64,000 nt of DNA from Aminobacter niigataensis. GTDB lineage: Bacteria > Pseudomonadota > Alphaproteobacteria > Rhizobiales > Rhizobiaceae. Shown in pieces: positions 52,808-64,000 of the stretch. Under the pieces are notes generated by a model. It searched no databases. It had not been told where the DNA came from and worked only from the letters and a program-made list of their open reading frames with translations. The stretch covers positions 124,001 to 188,000 of the forward strand of contig NZ_JACHOT010000004.1 in NCBI RefSeq assembly GCF_014200015.1. The letters are read 5' to 3'. Both the position numbers and the translations under genes were made by a program. How positions within the stretch are numbered: the first letter of the stretch is position 1; each line of letters opens with the position of its first letter.

Positions 52808-53256
52808 TTCCAGCGGCTCCCTCATGAGCGGGTGTCCCTTCCTGCTTCAGAGCAGGGCTTGTGCAGGACAAATTAGGTACAAAATGTGGCATACCCCCCG
52901 ATGAAGGGGAGCGCAACCACCACAACCAGTCCGCTTTCTATATGGGGCGCCTCAAGAAAAGCTCGAACAAAAAGGTTTTGTTGCAAGATTTTGACCAGCG
53001 TCATGGGAGGAAACCCCTGACAAGTCATCGGCGTATCAAATGTTCAAGAACCGCCAGTTCGCTTGCAATATCGCTCCCGGCGCCGGCGTAAACATCGGCA
53101 TCAGGCCACGATTGAACCGACGAACATGCAACCGACGAAGTATGCAGCCATGCGCCAGCCCAGGCGGGTCCGTCTTGTCGATTGCAAGCAACTGAGGTGC
53201 CGGTTCGATGACGTCCTTGCCAATCGCCTTCTCTCTTCCATCGCGTCGCGAGCGAA
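52808..53256. other. Gene-free region upstream of chvI, synteny boundary
   Basis: This 449-bp stretch contains no supportable gene on either strand. It is noticeably richer in A and T around 52860-53050 than its flanks. I looked for pckA, which lies beside chvI in Sinorhizobium, Agrobacterium and Brucella as I remember them, and found no trace of it. A chvI promoter must lie here but I could not fix it. No inverted repeat or att-like site was obvious. Confidence 0.5.
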
Positions 53257-53775
53257 TTACTGGCCCAGAAAGGCCGCGGCCGCCGACTGACCGCCGATGA
53301 CCGCCACCACTTCGGCCTCGATCAGGAAGCCCTCATACATCAGGCCGGCAACACGCACGGCGGTGGCCGCGGGGCCTGGATCGGAAATGTAGCGCAGACG
53401 CACTCGCGTCATCTTCTCCCAAAACTCCTGGATCTCCTCGCCCTGACCGTCGAAGACGTAGTAGGTGTTGAGCTTGACGACATCCTTCCAGGTCGCGCCG
53501 GCGCTGGCCAGCACGCGGGTGATGTTGTCGAAGACGTTCTGCGTCTGCAGTTCGATGTCGCCCTCTCCAACGACATTGCCATGTTTGTCGGCCGATAATT
53601 GCCCCCCCACGAACACCATCGGACCGATCCGCCAGCCTTGCGAGAACGGCGTGGGAATGTGCCAGTCCCAATGGTTAGCAGGCGACAGGCGCTGACGTCC
53701 GGTATCAAGGATAGGCTGGCTGGACAAAATTCTTTTCCTACTGCTGTTGGCGGCACGCAAGCCGTCGGCCCTCAT
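53257..53775 (-). CDS. Rid (YjgF/RidA/UK114) family protein
   Basis: The 172-residue protein contains a Rid fold from about residue 45: HIPTPFSQGWRIGPMVFVGG, then LQTQNVFDNITRVLASAGAT and VVKLNTYYVFDGQGEE, and the Arg in the ligand site GPAATAVRVAGLMYEG near 145. RidA hydrolyses reactive enamine/imine intermediates from PLP enzymes; other Rid subfamilies act in nitrogen-compound catabolism. This one has an N-terminal extension of about 40 residues. The ATG at 53775 has a GAGG; in-frame ATG (53793) and GTG (53823) lie upstream. It is divergent from a LysR gene, which may control it. Its position with a ureohydrolase suggests a catabolic Rid role. Confidence 0.85.
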   Translation of the reverse strand: MRADGLRAANSSRKRILSSQPILDTGRQRLSPANHWDWHIPTPFSQGWRIGPMVFVGGQLSADKHGNVVGEGDIELQTQNVFDNITRVLASAGATWKDVVKLNTYYVFDGQGEEIQEFWEKMTRVRLRYISDPGPAATAVRVAGLMYEGFLIEAEVVAVIGGQSAAAAFLGQ

Positions 53776-53823
53776 ATCTGCGGCCTCATGCATTAGGACT
53801 TGCAAGAATGCATCGATAAACAC

Positions 53824-53849
53824 CTATCTTTCTAAATTCTTTTCGATAG
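53824..53849. promoter_or_regulatory. Candidate LysR operator between the Rid gene and lysR
   Basis: The inverted repeat CTATC-N16-GATAG (53824-53828 with 53845-53849) is centred in the AT-rich 103-bp divergent region. It lies 30 bp upstream of the LysR start codon. LysR proteins often bind such an interrupted palindrome between their own gene and the target. Confidence 0.4.
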
Positions 53850-53878
53850 TTTCGATGTGATCGGAGAGGGAGGTCAGC

Positions 53879-54790
53879 ATGCGGTTTTCGCCGTCGGATT
53901 TGCGCGGTCTCGCCGTGTTCCGGTCGATCATCGACAATGGCGGCTTCGGCGGCGCCCAGTTGGCCCTCGGCATGAGCCAGTCGACGTTGAGCTTTCATCT
54001 GAAGGCGCTGGAAGATCGTGTCGGCTTCGAATTGTGCCGCCGAGGCCGCCGCGGCTTCCAGCTCACCGAAAAGGGCCGGGAAGTGTTCGAGGCCTCCAAG
54101 AGCCTCGTCGCAGCCGTTTCAAGTTTCGAAAGCAAGCTCGGCGAACTGAAGAAGGAGATCGTGGGGACACTCCGTGTCGGCGTGGTTGCCAACACTGTCA
54201 GCGATCCGAATCTGCCCATCGACGCGGTGATGGAAGCATGCCTGCGGAAGGTGAAGGACGCCGACATCGAGCTTCTGGTCGCACACCCGCAGGCGCTGAT
54301 AGACGAATTGGGAAGAGACGGCATCGATATTGCGCTGACGCCGCCGATGCGTATCAGTGCGGATTTTCGCGAGAAGGTCTTCTACCACGAGATGCACTCG
54401 CTCTACTGCAGCCACCGCCACCCCCTGTTCAAGGTTGGCAAGGCGGCGCTGACACGAGAGGAAATCGCCCGCCACGACTTCATTGTGCGGTCTTACGCCA
54501 ACAAGGCCGAGATCAGCTTCTATCCGGGTGCCCAGGTACGGATTCAGTCATCCACCATGGAGGCGCAGGCGATCTTGGTCCTGAGCGGCAGCGTGATCGG
54601 CTATCTGCCCGAACATTTCGCTCGCCAGTGGGAGCAAAGCGGCCAGATGCGGCGGCTGAATTCACCGGCCGAGCGCTATGCCTCGCCGTTGGTGATCGTC
54701 TCGAAGCTGGATCAGAGAATTTCCGCGATCCAGCGCATGTTCATCAAGGAACTGACGAGCCGGTGCGTTCTGGATGGAACCGGCCCGTAG
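53879..54790 (+). CDS. LysR family transcriptional regulator (first of two paralogs)
   Basis: The 303-residue protein has an N-terminal winged helix (residues 6-65: RGLAVFRSIIDNGGFGGAQ, MSQSTLSFHLKALEDRVGF) and a periplasmic-binding-type effector domain (about 95-300). A GAGGGAGG SD precedes the ATG. It is divergent from the Rid gene and convergent with the ureohydrolase gene (75 bp between stops). Its recognition region closely resembles that of the second LysR protein at 59.3 kb (both read FRxxxDNxGFxGAQxAL, KALExRxGF, GFQLTEKG), and both share the effector-domain segment SSTMEAQAILVLSG/VSNMEAQAILILSG. The two probably arose by duplication and may sense related molecules. Confidence 0.93.
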   Translation: MRFSPSDLRGLAVFRSIIDNGGFGGAQLALGMSQSTLSFHLKALEDRVGFELCRRGRRGFQLTEKGREVFEASKSLVAAVSSFESKLGELKKEIVGTLRVGVVANTVSDPNLPIDAVMEACLRKVKDADIELLVAHPQALIDELGRDGIDIALTPPMRISADFREKVFYHEMHSLYCSHRHPLFKVGKAALTREEIARHDFIVRSYANKAEISFYPGAQVRIQSSTMEAQAILVLSGSVIGYLPEHFARQWEQSGQMRRLNSPAERYASPLVIVSKLDQRISAIQRMFIKELTSRCVLDGTGP

Positions 54791-54865
54791 GCCTTCATCG
54801 TTGTCTGCTTGCCAGACCCAAGCCAGCCTCCAAAGGCCCCCCAGGTCCGGCTCGCATTTAGGCCG

Positions 54866-55879
54866 TCACGAAGAAGGCTGCCATTTCCACTTACGGCCGC
54901 AACCGGCCTTGCGCGCGGCCATGGCGGCGAATGCCTCGGCCATCAGTCGAGCGGCAAGCGCCGAGGTGATGTGCGAGGCGCTGTCATGCTCGGGAGCAAC
55001 CTCGACGACGTCGAAACCGACAAGGCCGTTCTCGCAGACCAGCCTTACGGCATCGATGGCCTCCCTGGCCGTCAGTCCGCCGGGCTCGATGCTGTTCGTG
55101 GCCGGCGCGAAGGCCGGATCGACACCATCGATGTCGAAGCTGACATAAGGGGCCTGCCCGTCAGGAGAAGCCACCTGAAGCGCCTCGATGGCGACCTCAG
55201 AGATCCCGCGCGCCTCGATTTCCGACATTCCATAGATGCGGATTCCAAGCTCACGTGCGATGGGCGTCCACTCCTGGACGTTGCGCGGGCCGCGCGCGCC
55301 GATGATCGCGACGCGACGCGGATCGATATTGGGAAGCTCGCAGATGCGCTTGAGCGGCGAGGCGCGGGTCAGGCGGTCCTCACGATAGCTCTCGGCGAGA
55401 TCGAGATGGGTATCGAAGATGACCATGCCGGCCTTGTAGTCAATATCCCGGACGGCCTCTTTCACCGCCGGATATGTAACGCCATGATCGCCGCCGATCA
55501 TGAAAGGAACGGCCGACGCCTTCTTGACGGCAGCAATTCGCGCCTCGAGACGCTCGTAGCTCCTGGCATTGTCACCGGGCACGATATCGACATCGCCGGC
55601 ATCGAGCACCTTGATGTGGTTGAAGACTTCGAGATCCCAATCGAAGTTGTATGACCCATAGAGAAGCGACAGCTTGCGAACCCAGGCCGGTGCCAGGCGC
55701 GTAGCACCGCCGCGCAGTGTTGCAATGCCGTCGTAGGGCATGCCGACCACGATCGCGTCGGCTTCGACGTCCGACAGATCGGGGCAGTATGGCGTTGCCA
55801 TGAAGCTGGGCGTGTCGCCATAGATCAGCTTGACCAGCCGGGGATTCTCGAAGGCGCTTTCAGTCATCATCATTTCCAT
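54866..55879 (-). CDS. Divergent ureohydrolase (arginase/agmatinase superfamily), catalytic His replaced by Arg
   Basis: The 337-residue protein has the binuclear Mn ureohydrolase fold. All six expected metal ligands are present: His132 (GGDHG), Asp156, His158 and Asp160 (FDTHLDL), Asp249 and Asp251 (SFDIDGVDP); the conserved Glu293 (VVEVAPEHD) is too. The His that shuttles protons in arginase and agmatinase (usually HGxPxRR) is Arg172 here (LTRASPLKRI, codon CGC). The usual GTGTPEPGG loop reads ATNSIEPGG. Canonical family members hydrolyse guanidino groups of arginine, agmatine or guanidinobutyrate to urea. With this active-site change, the substrate or reaction may differ, so I do not name it SpeB. 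The ATG at 55879 has two further in-frame ATGs just after it (55873, 55867 region). It lies 136 bp downstream of the ABC ATPase gene on the same strand. Confidence 0.9.
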   Translation of the reverse strand: MEMMMTESAFENPRLVKLIYGDTPSFMATPYCPDLSDVEADAIVVGMPYDGIATLRGGATRLAPAWVRKLSLLYGSYNFDWDLEVFNHIKVLDAGDVDIVPGDNARSYERLEARIAAVKKASAVPFMIGGDHGVTYPAVKEAVRDIDYKAGMVIFDTHLDLAESYREDRLTRASPLKRICELPNIDPRRVAIIGARGPRNVQEWTPIARELGIRIYGMSEIEARGISEVAIEALQVASPDGQAPYVSFDIDGVDPAFAPATNSIEPGGLTAREAIDAVRLVCENGLVGFDVVEVAPEHDSASHITSALAARLMAEAFAAMAARKAGCGRKWKWQPSS

Positions 55880-56015
55880 TCTTGCAGTTTAGAATAGTTG
55901 CCCGAAGGCACGCCCAGGCCCTGGAACCGGATCGTACCGATCCGGTTCCGCTGGCGTGACCTGCAGGTTGGGAAGAACTCGTGGACTAAGTCGCCGGACT
56001 TGCGCTGACCTTCCG

Positions 56016-56834
56016 CTAGAAGGAGCGCGTCCTCCAGGTGTCGAGGAATTGCTTGAGGCGGTCGTTACGAGGGTTCTTGAAGATCTCGTCCGGACTGCCT
56101 TGTTCAAGGATCACGCCTCGATCCATGAAGACGACCGTGTCGGCCATCTGTGCGGCAAACCCCATTTCGTGTGTCACAATGGCCATGGTCATGCCTTCGA
56201 CGGCAAGCTGGCGCATCACGCCAAGCACCTCGCCCACCAACTCGGGATCAAGCGCCGAGGTCGGTTCGTCAAACAGGATGACGTGCGGCTTCATCGCGAG
56301 TGCCCGGGCAATGGCCACCCGTTGCTGCTGTCCGCCGGACAATTGCGACGGGTAGTTGCCAGCCTTGTCGCCCAGGCCGACCTTGGAGAGTGCTTCTCGG
56401 GCCTCCCTTTCGGCCTGATCAGCCTTCAGCTTGCGCGTGACGCGAAGCGCCAAAGCGACGTTTTCCAGAGCCGTCATGTGCGGCCAGAGATTGAAGTGCT
56501 GAAAAACCATGCCGACGTTGCGGCGCACCTTGGCGAGCTCGCGATGCCCCTGCATGAGACGGCGCTCGCCCTGTTGCTTGTAGCCCAGCAGTTGCCCCTC
56601 GATGCTGACCCTGCCGCCGGTATAGGGATCCAGGAAGGCAAGGCATCGGAGCAGCGTGCTCTTGCCGGACCCCGACGGGCCGATGATGCAAACGACTTCC
56701 GACCTTCGGATCTTCAGATCGATCCCATTGAGAACAGGCACCGGACCAAAGGTCTTGGTGAGTTCCTCGACCTCGATGACAACCTCCCGGTCGGAGGCAG
56801 CCAATTCAACCCGGGGCTGACCATTAAGCGCCAT
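56016..56834 (-). CDS. Polar amino acid ABC transporter, ATPase subunit
   Basis: The 272-residue ATPase is a GlnQ/HisP-type subunit. Motifs are Walker [19 protein letters not shown] near residue 60, the Q-loop [10 protein letters not shown], the signature [19 protein letters not shown] near 165, Walker [20 protein letters not shown], and the H-loop [10 protein letters not shown]. The start at 56834 is inside the end of the permease gene upstream (ATG overlap of 11 bp), which supports co-translation. It has a 30-residue N-terminal extension before [13 protein letters not shown]. It is the last gene of the SBP-permease-permease-ATPase operon. Confidence 0.95.
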
Positions 56835-57477
56835 GACTAAACCTCCGCTCCAGGAACAGGCCACACCGGGCGACGGCCTCAATGATGACCCAGTAGATGA
56901 CTGTGACCGCGATGTATGGTTCGATTATCGACGACGTCTCGTTGACGATCTGGGTCGCGACCTTCGTCAACTCGCTGACGGTGATGATGGAAAGCAGCGC
57001 CGACTCCTTGAACATCATGACGATCTGACCAAACAGGGCGGGAATGATGAGCCGCAGCATCTGCGGAATCTTGATACGCAGGACGATGCTGGTCCGCGAA
57101 AGACCGAGCATTTCTCCCGCCTCGATCTGTCCGCGCGGGATCGACTGAAAGCCGGCGCGGAATATCTCCGCAAAATAGGCTGCCCCGTAGATCCCCAGTC
57201 CGAGAATTCCTGCGGGAACCGGGTCCACAACGAGCCCGATGGAGGGCCCGCCGTAGTAGAGCATGAACAGCACGATCAGGACGGGCGTGCCGCGCATGAT
57301 CTCGACATACGTCCTGACCATCCATCGGACCGGCGCCAAAGAGCTTCCGTTGAGAAGTTCGAGGACGAGACCAAGACCGAGCGCCAACACTGTCGCCAGC
57401 GATGTCACGTAAAGAGTGGCCCAGGCTCCCGATAGGAGCAGTGGCAGGAATTGGCTGATTGTATCGATGACCGTCAC
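56824..57477 (-). CDS. Polar amino acid ABC transporter, permease subunit 1
   Basis: The 217-residue membrane protein belongs to the HisMQ/GlnP permease family with about five helices. The coupling motif is [20 protein letters not shown] near residue 108, where the ATPase docks, and [16 protein letters not shown] near 62 is typical. The GTG at 57477 overlaps the stop of the other permease (GTGA junction). Confidence 0.94.
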
Positions 57478-58133
57478 GCCCGGGCTCCACGTGCAAGTCG
57501 CGCCTCGGCACGACGCCCCAACTGCGCAATGACCAGATTCATGACGATGTAGATGATGGCGATCAGCCCGTAGACCTCGAGTGGCCGATAGGTAGCGGAG
57601 ACAATCTGCTGCCCGGTCCGCAGAAGTTCTGTCACCGAGATGACCGAAATAATCGACGAGTTTTTCAGGATGCTTATGAACTCATTGGTGATGGCGGGCG
57701 TCACTAGACGCAGCAGCTGCGGGATGACGATACGCCGGCGGATGGTGATGGGCGCTATGCCAAGCATCTGCGCCGCCTCCACCTGTCCCTTGGGAACGGC
57801 GCTCAATCCTCCGCGGAAGATTTCTGCCTGGAAAGCCGATGTGTTCAGTATCAATGCGAGCACCGCGGCGGTGACCGGCGAGAGATCCAGCCCGATCGAC
57901 GGCAGCAGATAAAAGACGAGCAGAATCTGCACGAGCAACGGCGTGCCACGCCAGAAACTCCGGTAGACCGCGCAGAACAGGCGGATCGGCCGGTTATGTG
58001 AGACGAGGCCAAAAGCGAAGGCCAGTCCCAGCGGCATGCCGAGCAGGATGGAGGCGCCTGAAATGACTGCCGTCGTTGCCGCGCCCACCAGCAGCATCTC
58101 CTTGTAGGCCCATGCAATGTGCAGAAATTCCAT
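57474..58133 (-). CDS. Polar amino acid ABC transporter, permease subunit 2
   Basis: The 219-residue HisMQ/GlnP-type permease has about five helices, the RGTPLLVQILLVFYLLPSIG segment near residue 65 and the EAA-type coupling loop FRGGLSAVPKGQVEAAQMLG near 108. The ATG at 58133 has a very strong SD (AGGAGGAGCGG). It is followed by the second permease gene, with which it should form a heterodimer. A stable hairpin lies between it and the substrate-binding protein gene. Confidence 0.94.
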   Translation of the reverse strand: MEFLHIAWAYKEMLLVGAATTAVISGASILLGMPLGLAFAFGLVSHNRPIRLFCAVYRSFWRGTPLLVQILLVFYLLPSIGLDLSPVTAAVLALILNTSAFQAEIFRGGLSAVPKGQVEAAQMLGIAPITIRRRIVIPQLLRLVTPAITNEFISILKNSSIISVISVTELLRTGQQIVSATYRPLEVYGLIAIIYIVMNLVIAQLGRRAEARLARGARA

Positions 58134-58171
58134 CCGCTCCTCCTCCTGGCGCGACTCGTACGGGATTGCTC

Positions 58172-58199
58172 GTCGGCGCCGCCGTTTGGCGGCGCCGAC
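58172..58199 (-). promoter_or_regulatory. Intercistronic hairpin between the binding-protein and permease genes
   Basis: A perfect 12-bp stem GTCGGCGCCGCC/GGCGGCGCCGAC (58172-58183 with 58188-58199) with a GTTT loop lies in the 96-bp gap. There is no U run. Such stems often protect the upstream message, allowing the binding protein to be made in excess over the membrane parts. Confidence 0.7.
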
Positions 58200-58229
58200 A
58201 GTTCGGGACGGCCTGGTGGCCGATGTGCC

Positions 58230-59096
58230 TTATTGCGGTGCTGGGAGCGTCAACGGCAGATCGACGGAACTGCCGATCCATTTTTTCTGGAGTTCCGCCA
58301 GGACACCGCTCTTGTTCAGTTCCTGCAGACGCTCGTCGATCTTGCGGATCAGAGTGGCACTGTCTTCGTCCCTGCGTGCCGCCCAGGTGATATAACGGCT
58401 GGGTCCGAAGGCGGGCTGAACGACCTCGAAATCATCGGGGCGCTTCTGTTTCAGCATGAACAAAGCCGGCAGCGTATTGGCCACGGCATCGATACGACCG
58501 ACCATCAGGTCAGCGTAGGCCTCCTCGAAGCCGACATAGGTCTTGACTTCCTTGACCGGGATTCCCTGCGCCTTGAGCTGCTCGGCAAATGCATTTATGT
58601 CGCCGAGCGGAACCGAACCGGCCTGCGTGCCGACAATCTTGCCGGCGATGTCCTCGGACACGTTGAGCGATGTGTCGGATTTGCGCTTGATCAGAGCGAC
58701 GGTGGCGTCCGCAATCGGCGCGCTCAACGCGAACTTCTCATAGCGCGCCTTGTCGGCCACGATCGAGGTGACGACATAATCGAACTTTTTCGCCTGAAGG
58801 CCAGGAAGAATTCCCTGGAAAGGCAGGTCCATCCGGTTCAGCTTGACGTCGGGGAAAACCTCCATGACGCGAGCGATGACATCGGCCGAATAGCCGACGA
58901 TCTCGCCGTTTTCGACGAACTCGAACGGCGCATAACGCGCCTCCGTCCCAACCACGAATTCGCCGCGCGTCTCGATCGACGCAAGCAGGTCCTGCTCTCC
59001 GGCATGTGCTGGCACCGCAGCAAGAGCGGCCGCGCAACAGCCCAGCGTCAACGACAAAAGGCGCGAAATAAATGCCGACTTGACCTTACCACCCAC
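58230..59096 (-). CDS. Periplasmic substrate-binding protein, polar amino acid type
   Basis: The 288-residue protein has a signal peptide (cleavage likely after AVPAHA near residue 33) and an SBP_bac_3 (family 3) ligand-binding domain: FVVGTEARYAPFEFVENGEI near residue 48, ADVIARVMEVFPDVKLNRM near 70 and VGTQAGSVPLGDINAFAEQL near 155. The ligand Arg/Asp pattern in these positions fits amino-acid-like or guanidino ligands but is not specific. The GTG at 59096 has a GGGAGG SD; a TTG ten codons upstream is less likely. It is the first gene of the operon and is divergent from the second LysR gene. Confidence 0.93.
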   Translation of the reverse strand: MGGKVKSAFISRLLSLTLGCCAAALAAVPAHAGEQDLLASIETRGEFVVGTEARYAPFEFVENGEIVGYSADVIARVMEVFPDVKLNRMDLPFQGILPGLQAKKFDYVVTSIVADKARYEKFALSAPIADATVALIKRKSDTSLNVSEDIAGKIVGTQAGSVPLGDINAFAEQLKAQGIPVKEVKTYVGFEEAYADLMVGRIDAVANTLPALFMLKQKRPDDFEVVQPAFGPSRYITWAARRDEDSATLIRKIDERLQELNKSGVLAELQKKWIGSSVDLPLTLPAPQ

Positions 59097-59244
59097 AAGC
59101 CACCTCCCTGATTTTTTCCACCCCAAGCTTCGGCCTCATGGCACGAGCCGTAGGGACAGGGGCGACTGATAGACAGTATTTTACATCACATACATCTCAA
59201 TTTTGCGATGCTGACATTCAATTTCCAAATACTTGATCGCTGAT

Positions 59245-59250
59245 TATAAT
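59245..59250 (+). promoter_or_regulatory. Candidate -10 element for the second LysR gene
   Basis: A perfect TATAAT lies 86 bp upstream of the LysR start in the AT-rich divergent region (59160-59255). The matching -35 at 17-bp spacing (TTTCCA) is poor, so the promoter may need an activator. Confidence 0.4.
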
Positions 59251-59335
59251 GCGGTTCTGGAACGCGCTGAACGCGGGCGGAATGTTGCACATCCGCCTGG
59301 GAGCGGCGGGCAAAAACGTGCAAAAAGGGGTAACG

Positions 59336-60232
59336 ATGCGATTTTCGGACATGGATCTGAAGTCGATCCGCGTCTTTCGTGCTGTGGTCGATAACCATGG
59401 TTTCGCGGGCGCCCAGATCGCCCTCAACATAAGCCAGCCTGCCGTAAGCGCTCACATCAAAGCCTTGGAGGAACGACTCGGCTTTACCCTGTGCCAAAGA
59501 GGCAAGTCGGGCTTCCAGCTCACGGAGAAAGGCGAGCGCGTCTATGACAGCATCAAGACGCTGCTTCATGCGGTCGAACACTGCGAGACGGCAATTGGCG
59601 AACTGCGCCACCACCTGACCGGCGTACTGCGCCTGGGGCTTGCGGCCAACACCATCACCGACAGGAATTTCTCCATCCGCGAAGCCATGGAGAGATTCAA
59701 CCTGCGCGACCACGACGTCTCGCCCAACATTCTGATCGGAACGCCGGACCTTCTGGAGAAGGAGCTATTGAACGGATCGCTTCATCTGGCGGTGGGAAAT
59801 TTCACGAGCAATTTCGATGTTTTGCGCTACCGAAAGCTCTATGACGAAAAGAACACGATCTATTGCAGCGCTCACAGCCCCCTCTTCACGATAGACGATG
59901 CGGAAATTTCGCCGACGAAGGTTCGGAATGGCAATTTCGTCACCCGCGCCTATCTGAACCAGATTGAGCTGTCGCACCTTCCCGGCACGCGCCCATGCGC
60001 CGTCGTCTCGAACATGGAGGCGCAAGCGATCCTGATCCTCAGCGGCAACTATATCGGCTATCTTGCGGATCACTATGCCGCGGGGTGGGTGGAAACGGGC
60101 GAACTCCGACCGCTGTCCCATCCCGAGCTCGACAGGCTCATCCCGTTCCATCTGGTGACCCGGAAGGGGATGCCGCCGTCGCAGGTGGTAGAAGTGTTTA
60201 TTGCAGATTTGTGCGCAGCCATGCGCGTCTGA
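59336..60232 (+). CDS. LysR family transcriptional regulator (second paralog)
   Basis: The 298-residue protein has a winged-helix domain (residues 6-65: KSIRVFRAVVDNHGFAGAQ, ISQPAVSAHIKALEERLGF) and an effector domain. The ATG at 59336 has AAAGGGG upstream; the frame extends 29 codons further but without SD. It is divergent from the amino-acid-type ABC operon and convergent with the spermidine-type ABC operon, so it is well placed to control the first. It resembles the LysR protein at 53.9 kb along its whole length. Confidence 0.93.
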   Translation: MRFSDMDLKSIRVFRAVVDNHGFAGAQIALNISQPAVSAHIKALEERLGFTLCQRGKSGFQLTEKGERVYDSIKTLLHAVEHCETAIGELRHHLTGVLRLGLAANTITDRNFSIREAMERFNLRDHDVSPNILIGTPDLLEKELLNGSLHLAVGNFTSNFDVLRYRKLYDEKNTIYCSAHSPLFTIDDAEISPTKVRNGNFVTRAYLNQIELSHLPGTRPCAVVSNMEAQAILILSGNYIGYLADHYAAGWVETGELRPLSHPELDRLIPFHLVTRKGMPPSQVVEVFIADLCAAMRV

Positions 60233-60456
60233 GGGTCCAATCCTGGCGGCTCAGGCCCGCGCCGCGCTGACCATCTGCCCGATGGAAACCAACGGCTTGC
60301 GGCCGCCCCCCAAAGCTCTGCGGCAGACACTCGACGAGTTAGTCCTGACCTTCCAATTGCGACGGGCTCTGGCCCTGCGCCGATGCCCGTCGCTTCCCGT
60401 ACTCAAGCCCAACACCGGAACGAACTCAGAATTGGACAGATTCTGCAGGCAACGAC

Positions 60457-61266
60457 TCAATGAGAAGTGCTCAGTTCGTTGCTACGCATTTTGCGTATGG
60501 TCCATTCAATAACCAACGCAACAATCGTCATGGCGATGAGCAAGCTGCTGACCGCGGCAATGGTGGGTTCGACCTCAAGCAAGAGGCTGTTCCAAATACG
60601 CACGGGCAACGTTTCCGCGCGAATCCCTGCGAGGAAAAGCGAGATGAGCAATTCATCGAATGAAGTCAGAAACGAGAACAGCAGTGCGGATATCAGGCCG
60701 GGCATTGCGAGCGGAAGGACAACGTGGCGAAGCACACCAGCGCGCGAGCAGCCGCTGATCATCGCCGCACGCTCAAGATTTGGATCGATGGTCTTCAAGG
60801 TCGACTGCAATATGATCAGAACGACAGGGAGTGCCACGACACTGTGCGCCAACGCGATCCACGGTTTGAACCCTACCAGGCCGAAGCGCGCGGAAAGGAA
60901 GTACATGGCAACCGCAGTTACTATGTGCGGCACAATCAGTGGCATCAGAAGCAAGGCGACAACGGCATTGCGGAAGGCGAAAGCGCCGCGTGCGATTGCA
61001 TAGGCTGCCAGAAACCCCACCGCAGTCGAAAACACGCAGGCCATGAGGGCTATGACGAAGGAGTTCCACAACGACGCGAGCCACCGAGCGTCCCCGAGGA
61101 AGCGGAAATACCACTGCAGCGAAAGGCTTTCCGGCGGGAACTTTAGGTATCCGCCACCGCTGAACGATGCCACGACCACCACGGCGATCGGAGCAAGCAT
61201 CCCGCCGCAAAGCAGAACGACGAGCGCCTGTAGTATCCAGCTTCGGAGTGAATTACCGGCCATCAT
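60457..61266 (-). CDS. Spermidine/putrescine-type ABC transporter, permease PotC-like
   Basis: The 269-residue permease has six predicted helices and the PotC-type coupling loop ERAAMISGCSRAGVLRHVVLPL near residue 180, read as LERAAMISGCSRAGVLRHVV. The start LRSWILQALVVLLCGGMLAP is typical. Its ATG at 61266 overlaps the PotB-like stop. It is the last gene of the operon. The 224 bp beyond it, up to the second LysR stop, contains no gene. Confidence 0.93.
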   Translation of the reverse strand: MMAGNSLRSWILQALVVLLCGGMLAPIAVVVVASFSGGGYLKFPPESLSLQWYFRFLGDARWLASLWNSFVIALMACVFSTAVGFLAAYAIARGAFAFRNAVVALLLMPLIVPHIVTAVAMYFLSARFGLVGFKPWIALAHSVVALPVVLIILQSTLKTIDPNLERAAMISGCSRAGVLRHVVLPLAMPGLISALLFSFLTSFDELLISLFLAGIRAETLPVRIWNSLLLEVEPTIAAVSSLLIAMTIVALVIEWTIRKMRSNELSTSH

Positions 61267-62102
61267 ACGAATCTTTCCCCGGAACGATCCGCAAATCGGC
61301 CGTAGAGCGCATAGAGAGTGAGCGTGATGGCCAGCAGCGCGATCGTCATCAGGGCGGCGACAGGCCAGTTTTGCGAAACCTCGATCTCACGCTCGATGAG
61401 CGTCGCCATCATGATGTCGCCGGTCCCGCCCATGAGGGCAGGCGTTATGAAAAATCCGATCGCAAGGATAAAGACGATCAGCGATCCGGCCATGACTCCG
61501 TGCAGGGTCAACGGCAGGAAGACCTTTGCAAAGATCGTAAGCGGCCTTGCGCCCATTCCCTCGGCGGCCTGGAGCAGCCGGGAATCGACGGCCTTCATCG
61601 CACCAAACAGTGTCAGCACCATATATGGAAGCAGAACATAGGTCATGCCAATGACCACCCCGAGCCGGTTGTACATCAGGTTCAACGGCTCATTGATCAA
61701 CCCGGTCGAAAGAAGAACCTGATTGACGATGCCGTTGCGCCCCAGAATGACCATCCAGGCGTAAGTGCGAACCACAACACTGGTGAAATAGGGAACGACG
61801 ATGCAAATGAGAATGAGGGAAAAGGCGAGTCCCTTTGCTCTCGAGAGCGCGTAGGAAAGTGGGTATCCGATGATCAGCGCGGAAATCGTCACGACCAGAG
61901 CGATCACATTCGTCGTCCAGATTGCCCCAAGGATAGCGCGGGAGCCAAGGACGGACTTCGCCTCCGACCAAATTGCGTCAATGCTGCCAAGCTCCGCCAG
62001 CGAGGCGCCGACAAACCAGGCGATCGGCATCATGAACAGCGCGATCACCAGGACAAGGGCTGGCGCGATGAGCGCCCATTGGCTGATGCGGTAAAGGGGC
62101 AT
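61263..62102 (-). CDS. Spermidine/putrescine-type ABC transporter, permease PotB-like
   Basis: The 279-residue permease has six helices, with PYFTSVVVRTYAWMVILGRN near residue 105 and the EAA loop LQAAEGMGARPLTIFAKVFL near 178. It matches the PotB/PotH group. The start lies 4 bp after the ATPase stop, and its stop overlaps PotC by ATGA. It should form a heterodimer with the PotC-like permease. Confidence 0.93.
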   Translation of the reverse strand: MPLYRISQWALIAPALVLVIALFMMPIAWFVGASLAELGSIDAIWSEAKSVLGSRAILGAIWTTNVIALVVTISALIIGYPLSYALSRAKGLAFSLILICIVVPYFTSVVVRTYAWMVILGRNGIVNQVLLSTGLINEPLNLMYNRLGVVIGMTYVLLPYMVLTLFGAMKAVDSRLLQAAEGMGARPLTIFAKVFLPLTLHGVMAGSLIVFILAIGFFITPALMGGTGDIMMATLIEREIEVSQNWPVAALMTIALLAITLTLYALYGRFADRSGERFV

Positions 62103-62106
62103 CTAA

Positions 62107-63177
62107 TTACTTTCCCAGGAAACGTGCATCAGCCGACTGCCAGGAAAGGAGCACTTTGTCCCCCGGGCTAAAAGTCGAGCTGCTTGAGCCATTTGCCGCG
62201 TCGCACAGGACGGTCTGATCGTTCACGACGGAGACTTCGTAGCGAATGATGTTTCCGAGGAAGGAAACGCGCCTGACCTCACCGGGCAGCTGATTTACGT
62301 TTGGCGGTGCGTCCGACGGCAAGAGGGTCACTTTTTCAGGTCGAACGAACAGTTTCCCATCGTTCAGGTCGCCGATGTCTTCAGCGGTCTGGAATTGCGA
62401 TCCAGTGGCGCTTTGCAGAACACCGTTGACACGTCTCGCCTCGATCAGGTTTGCCTCACCCAGAAATTTGGCGACGAAGGAGCTTTCGGGACGCTCATAG
62501 ATCGCACGCGGTGAGCCCATTTGTGCAATCACGCCCCGGTCCATGATCGCGATGCGATCCGACATGGTGAGGGCTTCTTCCTGATCGTGCGTCACGTAGA
62601 CGACCGTCATACCCAACCGCCGGGAGATCTCCTTGATCTCGACCTGCATGTGGTAGCGCAAGTTCTTGTCGAGAGCTCCCAGAGGCTCATCCATAAGGAC
62701 GACCGAAGGATGCCCGACGATAGCACGCGCCAATGCCACGCGCTGTTGCTGGCCGCCGGAAAGCTGCCGCGCGAAGCGGCTCTCAAACCCTGTAAGCTTG
62801 ACCATCTCCAGTGCTTTTTTTACCCGTTCCGCAATCTCTGCCTTCGGCAGTTTTCGGATGGTCAATGGAAAGGCCACATTCCCGAAGACATCGAGGTGCG
62901 GAAAGATCGCATAGTTCTGGAAAACCATGCCGAGCCCCCGCTCTCGCGGGGGCGCAAAGGTGGCATCGGTGCCATTGATGTGGATGCGGCCCTGGTCGGG
63001 TCGGATGAACCCCGCGAGCAGGGACAAAGTCGTTGTCTTGCCGCTGCCTGAAGGACCCAAAAGACTGAAAAACTCACCTTGCGGGATGGTCAAGGATATA
63101 TCCTTGACCACGGTTTCCCGACCGTAGCTCTTTCTGAGGGCGCTAAGTTCGACGCTTGGAGGAGTGCTCGGTTTCAT
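62107..63177 (-). CDS. Spermidine/putrescine-type ABC transporter, ATPase PotA-like
   Basis: The 356-residue ATPase has Walker [20 protein letters not shown] near residue 38, Q-loop [10 protein letters not shown], signature [15 protein letters not shown] near 135, Walker [22 protein letters not shown]-loop [11 protein letters not shown], and a C-terminal TOBE domain (about 280-350, [12 protein letters not shown]). That domain makes it PotA/FbpC/CysA-like and not GlnQ-like. The ATG at 63177 overlaps the binding-protein stop (ATGA) and is chosen over upstream in-frame ATGs. Substrate assignment to polyamines follows from operon type only. Confidence 0.93.
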
Positions 63178-64000
63178 TGGAGAATCCAGTTCGACCATTC
63201 GCGATTGACCAGTTCCCGATTGTCCTCCCACCAATCAATGTTCGGCAAGAACCCGACCGCCCTCGATGCGGGGCTGCCTGGCAGCTGGGCGGCCTGTTCA
63301 GCGGTCAGGATGCCGAAGGCTTTCTGATTGGTAGGTCCGTATTGGAGGTCGGCCGAATACCTCGCCTGAACCTCAGGCTGCAACATGAAGTCGATCAGCA
63401 TCTGGGCGTTCTTGGCGTTCGGCGCGCCCTCGAATACGCCGAGCGACTGGAGTTGCTGCATGTGCTGGTTCCAGACGAAGCCGAGCGGGACACCCTGATC
63501 GATCAGCGGCTGGACGCGACCATTCCAGATCGAGCCAAGCAACACTTCCTGGTCAAGCATCATCTGGCTGGATAGTGCCCCGGTGTCCCAGAACTTGCGG
63601 ATATGAGGGCGCAGCCTGCTCATCGCTTCGAACGCTCTCTTGATGTCCAGCGGATAAAGCTGATCCATCGGCACTCCATCCGCGAGCAGAGCGAATTCCA
63701 GGTTCGGATGGCCCGTGGCCATGTCGGCGAGCATTCTCGGACCCGCGAATTTCTCGGAGTTCCAGAAGTCGGACCAGTTCTGCGGATGCTGTCCATCCGG
63801 GAAGCTGTTCGTATTGTAGGCGAGCACGCTCGCATAGACGTAGTGCCCGACATGCTTGTCCTGGCGATAATCGACCATGACGTCATCGGGCTTGGACCAT
63901 TTCCAACTTCCATAGTCGATCGGAGCCAGGACGCCTTCGCGCTGCAATGTCACGAGCGGACCGATGGCCGCGTCGATAAGGTCCAGCTCGACATTCCGAG
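63174..64000 (-). CDS. Periplasmic substrate-binding protein, PotD-like, cut by the window edge
   Basis: The frame is open from the stop at 63174 to the right edge, so the N-terminus, including any signal peptide, is missing. The visible 274 residues match the family 1 binding proteins of spermidine/putrescine and iron(III)-type systems: VLAPIDYGSWKWSKPDDVMV, ASVLAYNTNSFPDGQHPQNW, WSDFWNSEKFAGPRMLADMA and the C-terminal NIDWWEDNRELVNREW. The polyamine-binding residues cannot be confirmed without the full N-domain. It heads the second ABC operon and overlaps potA. Confidence 0.9.
   Translation of the reverse strand, partial: RNVELDLIDAAIGPLVTLQREGVLAPIDYGSWKWSKPDDVMVDYRQDKHVGHYVYASVLAYNTNSFPDGQHPQNWSDFWNSEKFAGPRMLADMATGHPNLEFALLADGVPMDQLYPLDIKRAFEAMSRLRPHIRKFWDTGALSSQMMLDQEVLLGSIWNGRVQPLIDQGVPLGFVWNQHMQQLQSLGVFEGAPNAKNAQMLIDFMLQPEVQARYSADLQYGPTNQKAFGILTAEQAAQLPGSPASRAVGFLPNIDWWEDNRELVNREWSNWILQ

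Follow-up and report, generated by a model that had tools for sequence, protein, structure and literature searches.

In the genome of Aminobacter niigataensis, a block of about 16 kb between chvI and pckA looks like a horizontally acquired catabolic island. It begins in a stretch of 64,000 nucleotides (the window; positions 124,001 to 188,000 of contig NZ_JACHOT010000004.1, hereafter C4) and runs past the window edge, from window position 52974 to C4:192808 (15,835 bp). A preliminary description of the window had listed a Rid protein, a divergent ureohydrolase (UreoU), two ATP-binding cassette (ABC) importers and two LysR regulators. All of these genes are present, each in the position and orientation reported. 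The features in the window are as follows.

52974..64000, no strand: part of the island inside the window (empty-site match in congener G1285, terminal repeats, guanine-cytosine [GC] content)
52974..52984, plus strand: left terminal inverted repeat, the sole copy in its 20-kb stretch
53257..53823, minus strand: Rid (YjgF/L-PSP) family protein, under the TIGR00004 cut-off
53879..54790, plus strand: LysR1 regulator, 85% identical to a LysR in 'Roseateles' XES5
54866..55879, minus strand: UreoU, ureohydrolase of a distinct clade, with Arg172 for the active-site His and the loop T261-N262-S263
56016..56882, minus strand: ATPase of the amino-acid-type ABC importer (profile matches)
56824..57477, minus strand: permease 2 of the amino-acid-type ABC importer (profile matches)
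57474..58133, minus strand: permease 1 of the amino-acid-type ABC importer (profile matches)
58230..59126, minus strand: binding protein of the amino-acid-type importer, with the Arg kept and the Asp of amino-acid binding proteins missing
59249..60232, plus strand: LysR2 regulator; the LysR encoded next to importer and UreoU in Paenochrobactrum shares 75% identity with it
60457..61266, minus strand: PotC-type permease (profile matches)
61263..62102, minus strand: PotB/PotH-type permease (profile match)
62107..63234, minus strand: PotA-type ATPase, over the TIGR01187 cut-off
63174..64000, minus strand: spermidine-type binding protein, cut by the window edge and complete at C4:187174-188340

Pfam domains found in the window are Ribonuc_L-PSP (76 bits), Arginase (238 bits), SBP_bac_3, BPD_transp_1 (twice), ABC_tran and LysR (twice). 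LysR1 and LysR2 are paralogous, each matching the closest orthologue of the other at 38-40% identity. Beyond the window the island continues with an M24 protein (minus strand), an XRE-cupin regulator (plus), a HutD protein (minus) and an M20 amidohydrolase of the allantoate/carbamoylase group (plus), followed by pckA. The arrangement noted previously, with enzymes and transporters on the minus strand and regulators on the plus strand, holds inside the window and breaks down beyond it, where the M20 enzyme is encoded on the plus strand.

The boundaries of the island are well marked. The distance between pckA and chvI is 310-340 bp in all eight congeners examined (chvI is present in nine; G1287 was left out of this comparison), whereas the genome studied here has an extra 15.8 kb at this site; the insertion is absent from the congeners examined. 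In the chvI-pckA intergenic region of G1285, a 219-bp part (95.9% identity) matches the left flank of the insertion and a 232-bp part (94.0%) matches the right flank; these matches join at a single base. The termini are perfect 11-bp inverted repeats (GGTTTTGTTGC at the start and its exact reverse complement at the end), each copy unique within its own 20-kb stretch. We take these repeats to be reminiscent of the ends of IS6-family elements. No target-site duplication is evident by eye at the ends, and no transfer RNA gene was found in the 20 kb scanned near the left end. GC content is 59.3% on the island and 65.0% in the remaining window and continuation.

UreoU is the only Arginase-family match on the island in a profile search and one of seven in the genome. 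This protein has the conserved domain PF00491 (Arginase; 238 bits, cut-off 22), and its six metal ligands (H132, D156, H158, D160, D249 and D251) are kept in all 13 members of its clade, so that it is a member of the ureohydrolase superfamily. It falls below the equivalog cut-off of the agmatinase model TIGR01230 (167.9 vs 174.3). The clade comprises 13 distinct sequences, 53-82% identical to the window protein, and forms a single group in the tree (support 100/99). Its boundary is sharp: members score 529-647 bits against the clade profile and the next ureohydrolase scores 229. Two further records, from Mesorhizobium ciceri plasmids, have identical matched stretches and were counted once; the Mesorhizobium members are annotated merely as 'agmatinase family protein'. 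Clade members occur in 5 of 296 other genomes of the order (E-value up to 1e-60). With a profile (E-value up to 1e-85) they were found in 3 of 296 others in a family sample, 3 of 384 in a class sample and none of 397 in a phylum sample, three samples that may overlap.

The active site of UreoU is altered throughout the clade. At the active-site His position, which we take to be arginase H141, all 13 members have Arg (Arg172). Of the 57 other sequences compared, three are gapped at this position, and 51 of the remaining 54 have His. The three exceptions all come from the same genome as UreoU: the two subunits of a dimethylguanidine-hydrolase-type pair, with Asn in alpha and Ala in beta, and a divergent paralogue with Leu. 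This paralogue (L013:7849-9075, contig C6) is a very divergent ureohydrolase on a long branch. All 13 members also have Asn-Ser at positions 262-263, giving the specificity loop TNS instead of the usual TGT (Gly in 54 and Thr in 53 of the 57 comparison sequences), and Thr157 between two metal ligands. The AlphaFold model of UreoU has a mean predicted local distance difference test score of 89 and a predicted template modelling score of 0.90; its best structural matches (Foldseek) are GpuA, metformin hydrolase, proclavaminate amidinohydrolase and guanidinase. Taken together, these features identify UreoU as a predicted di-metal ureohydrolase of a new, rare subfamily with an altered active site.

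Among known ureohydrolases, the guanidinopropionase GpuA and the guanidinobutyrase GbuA of Pseudomonas aeruginosa have the same fold as UreoU (top Foldseek match 3nip) but are only 34% and 29% identical to it in structural alignments, and differ from it by the His to Arg and TGT to TNS changes. The best PDB sequence match is the guanidine hydrolase GdmH (163.5 bits), which shares the metal ligands but keeps the active-site His. A tryptophan (W305 in Synechocystis) matters for the guanidine specificity of GdmH, according to PMC11410670; by our own mapping, its loop position is Ser263 in all 13 UreoU members. Like UreoU, the dimethylguanidine hydrolase DmgH / metformin hydrolase MefH (MetCaCb, MfmAB) belongs to the ureohydrolase superfamily and has lost the active-site His. 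UreoU is 27% identical to the alpha subunit in its own genome. In contrast to UreoU, a single gene on the island, DmgH/MefH is a two-gene heteromer encoded beside hypA/hypB, and tandem genes for an alpha and a metal-free beta subunit are absent from the island. PMC11399263 describes mutations that locate DmgH specificity in a loop and in the residue preceding a metal-binding His; in our mapping, this loop corresponds to the specificity loop of UreoU. The own-genome pair lies outside the window, beside hypA (L010:8855-11411, contig C5). Comparison of its alpha subunit with the Aminobacter metformin hydrolase structure 8x3g shows 22 differences over 357 positions, and at the specificity positions (184 and 288-290) given in PMC11399263 this subunit has the dimethylguanidine-hydrolase letters.

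The genes surrounding UreoU were compared across all 13 loci of the clade (fetched stretches of 10.8 to 46 kb, some overlapping) using matches with E-values up to 1e-15 over at least half of the query; six partial-match loci (L056-L061) were left out of the count. A relative of the amino-acid-type importer lies beside UreoU in six of the 13 loci, the window included, and in none of 35 control ureohydrolase loci. The other neighbours are DUF1989 proteins and GpuA-like ureohydrolases of at least 60% identity (five loci each), creatininases, BMP-type binding proteins, deiminase/amidinotransferase-like proteins, DadA-like dehydrogenases and M20 proteins (three each) and XRE-cupin regulators (two). 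The G079 locus has none of the counted families. One control locus has an M20 gene and one has LysR relatives; apart from the control ureohydrolases themselves, which reach 57% identity to the GpuA-like query, the other families are absent from the controls. The controls are taxonomically distant (archaea and metagenome-assembled genomes from soil), which makes 0 of 35 a weak figure, and most queries were taken from clade loci; the contrast is supportive, not statistical. The GpuA-like neighbours are 60-67% identical to PDB 3nip. The DUF1989 proteins were considered as possible carboxyguanidine deiminases, a reading weakened by scores below the UAAP1/UAAP2 cut-offs. Three ureohydrolases (V type, UreoU and GpuA-like) occur with DUF1989, LysR and one importer in less than 10 kb at L078, L079 and L082. 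At L074 and L075, D-amino-acid-dehydrogenase genes stand on both sides of UreoU, with a TauD-type dioxygenase nearby.

The closest relative of the window locus, in Paenochrobactrum gallinarii, preserves the gene order of LysR2, importer and UreoU and lacks both the spermidine-type genes and the window's Rid. The importer is kept with UreoU in lineages as distant from each other as Paenochrobactrum, Mesorhizobium and G055, and in G055 M20, XRE-cupin, importer, DUF1989 and UreoU genes stand together. A Paraburkholderia locus combines the importer with M20, a DUF1989-type gene, a cupin and a GpuA-like ureohydrolase. These two neighbourhoods suggest that the M20 and XRE-cupin genes of the island are tied to the same guanidino theme. 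The preliminary description had proposed a cluster for the uptake and hydrolysis of a guanidino compound, to be sought in relatives. The linkage of the divergent ureohydrolase to the amino-acid-type importer bears this out, and the two-part module recurs in some other Hyphomicrobiales, although UreoU was not found in the nine other genomes of the genus searched. The single integrated layout also envisaged does not hold: a relative of the window's Rid occurs at one of the 13 loci, the window itself, and identity between the spermidine-type binding protein and its counterparts in the other loci compared amounts to only 21-30%. The island is an assembly of modules, and its whole layout is not a conserved unit.

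The amino-acid-type importer is also found with other guanidino enzymes. Relatives of its binding protein, all below 60% identity, occur on 323 plasmid records, five of which were examined for context. One of these, a Klebsiella pneumoniae plasmid, carries a LysR gene, a complete importer of the window's family and an authentic creatinase (604 bits to PDB 1chm) adjacent to one another (L092:5524-10957), an arrangement that suggests plasmid-borne creatine use. Binding-protein relatives are on 272 Klebsiella and 11 Raoultella plasmid records, of which this is the one examined. Two Rhizobium plasmid records also encode a ureohydrolase, and the Paraburkholderia locus described above is on a further one of the five. 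In 'Roseateles' XES5 the importer lies near two ureohydrolases, a BMP-type importer and the glycine-cleavage operon (glyA/lpd/gcvTHP), beside the LysR that is 85% identical to LysR1. All 10 aligned members of the binding-protein family keep the Arg and lack the Asp of amino-acid binding proteins. If these residues have the roles that we presume for them, their pattern is consistent with a ligand that has a carboxylate but no alpha-amino group.

A further link is to creatinine. Creatininases above the TIGR04448 cut-off are encoded by five of the 12 UreoU genomes, four of which (G055, G092, G004 and G1046) lack an authentic creatinase (>500 bits); among the 12, only G079 and G038 have one. Measured between matched stretches, the creatininase genes of G092 and G004 are about 300 bp from UreoU and divergently transcribed; that of G038 lies 6.9 kb from it. 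The M24 protein of the island was considered as a creatinase and rejected (53 bits to 1chm vs 88 to ectoine hydrolase).

The best-supported explanation, to which we assign a probability of about 60%, is that the island imports and hydrolyses a short guanidino acid. The proposed model is as follows. The amino-acid-type importer, under LysR control, would take up the guanidino acid, and UreoU would cleave it into urea and an amino acid. Arg172, standing in for the active-site His, would bind the carboxylate near the guanidine. The most likely substrate would be a creatine-class short guanidino acid with an N substituent, for example creatine or guanidinoacetate, yielding sarcosine or glycine. 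Creatine, giving sarcosine, is our leading specific guess, though a bolder one than the model itself, because creatine, like the DmgH substrate, is an N,N-disubstituted guanidine and both enzyme groups lack the His. A tentative extension, which we consider possible though doubtful, is that UreoU is a creatine amidinohydrolase with the ureohydrolase fold, the change from His to a carboxylate-binding Arg admitting an N,N-disubstituted guanidino acid. It would then be a second, unrelated solution to the reaction of creatinase, an enzyme of the M24 fold. No precedent for a creatine-hydrolysing ureohydrolase was found in titles and abstract openings of the open-licence literature, a survey that leaves subscription papers mostly uncovered.

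Several observations weigh against this model. The genome studied here has no creatininase over the cut-off (best 108.5 bits vs 235) and no real creatinase (best 51 bits). G079 and G038 carry both UreoU and a real creatinase, so UreoU is no simple replacement there. In G092, a creatinase-like gene of the M24 type (109 bits, 34% identity) lies about 9 kb from UreoU. A more distant binding protein of the same genome (37% identity) also lacks the Asp. UreoU lies beside D-amino-acid-dehydrogenase genes in three genomes (L074, L075 and L076) and beside a flavin amine oxidase in G079, which points to other chemistry. Finally, the tree tool flags the long branches joining UreoU to the dimethylguanidine-hydrolase-type pair.

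That grouping (support 98/87) also counts in favour of the main model, the pair having lost the His as well. Together with a weaker grouping with GdmH (84/58), it would equally fit a different substrate for UreoU: a guanidino compound that is no short acid, for example an N-alkylated guanidine (methyl- or dimethylguanidine). The importer would then serve some other amino acid. The substrates of GdmH and DmgH are uncharged small guanidines, according to PMC11410670 and PMC11399263. The creatininase, GpuA-like and creatinase-linked importer genes, however, all relate to guanidines that are carboxylated or of the creatine type, and a dimethylguanidine-hydrolase-type pair is already encoded elsewhere in the genome. 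The open reading frames of the island include no evident hypA/hypB nickel chaperone gene, although no profile search aimed at such genes was made. We regard an alkylguanidine substrate as unlikely.

The dehydrogenase and amine oxidase neighbours would fit a role for UreoU in handling a product of D- or L-arginine oxidation (2-ketoarginine or guanidinobutyrate), with Rid and dehydrogenases removing imines; besides the Rid gene in the window, there is another in G038. A DadA relative is absent, however, from all six importer loci (amine oxidase was not among the queries there), and the binding protein lacks the Asp presumably expected for an alpha-amino acid. This pathway seems rather improbable. 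Another alternative is that chance brought together ordinary transport and enzyme genes for separate substrates and that UreoU is an ordinary agmatinase. This would agree with an insertion absent from congeners and with the spermidine-type system and Rid not being conserved with UreoU, but the sub-threshold agmatinase score, separate clade, changed active site and retained importer make it a poor prospect.

Annotations of ureohydrolases are unreliable, and for UreoU a bounded clade, a changed active-site residue and a coherent gene context narrow the candidates to a testable list of substrates. Should the short-guanidino-acid model hold with creatine or guanidinoacetate as the substrate, UreoU would supply the missing enzyme in genomes that have a creatininase but no authentic creatinase; as a creatine amidinohydrolase, it would complete creatinine breakdown in such bacteria. 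It would also bear on the evolution of ureohydrolases toward N,N-disubstituted guanidines such as metformin.

The link of the spermidine-type importer and Rid to UreoU is weak, because neither is conserved with it. The importer had been proposed as part of the unit, a place weakened by its absence from the Paenochrobactrum stretch and the divergence of its binding protein. Its PotA-type ATPase scores 367 (cut-off 355.6), and its binding protein scores 57 bits against a PotD cut-off of 582. The window's Rid scores 62.5 with TIGR00004 (subfamily cut-off 106.25) and has no relative at E-values up to 1e-15 in the 12 other UreoU loci; the Rid gene of G038, about 5 kb from UreoU, is a different member of the family. 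The spermidine-type importer, M24 protein and Rid may each deal with the UreoU substrate or with other compounds. In G079 (L125:8528-14490) and G038 (L126:8760-14891), genes for spermidine-type ABC importers immediately adjoin authentic creatinase genes, and the G079 locus also has an XRE-cupin regulator. The substrate of these importers may be creatine and not polyamines. The window's potA is 46-48% identical to its counterparts there, and for the window importer this is a lead only.

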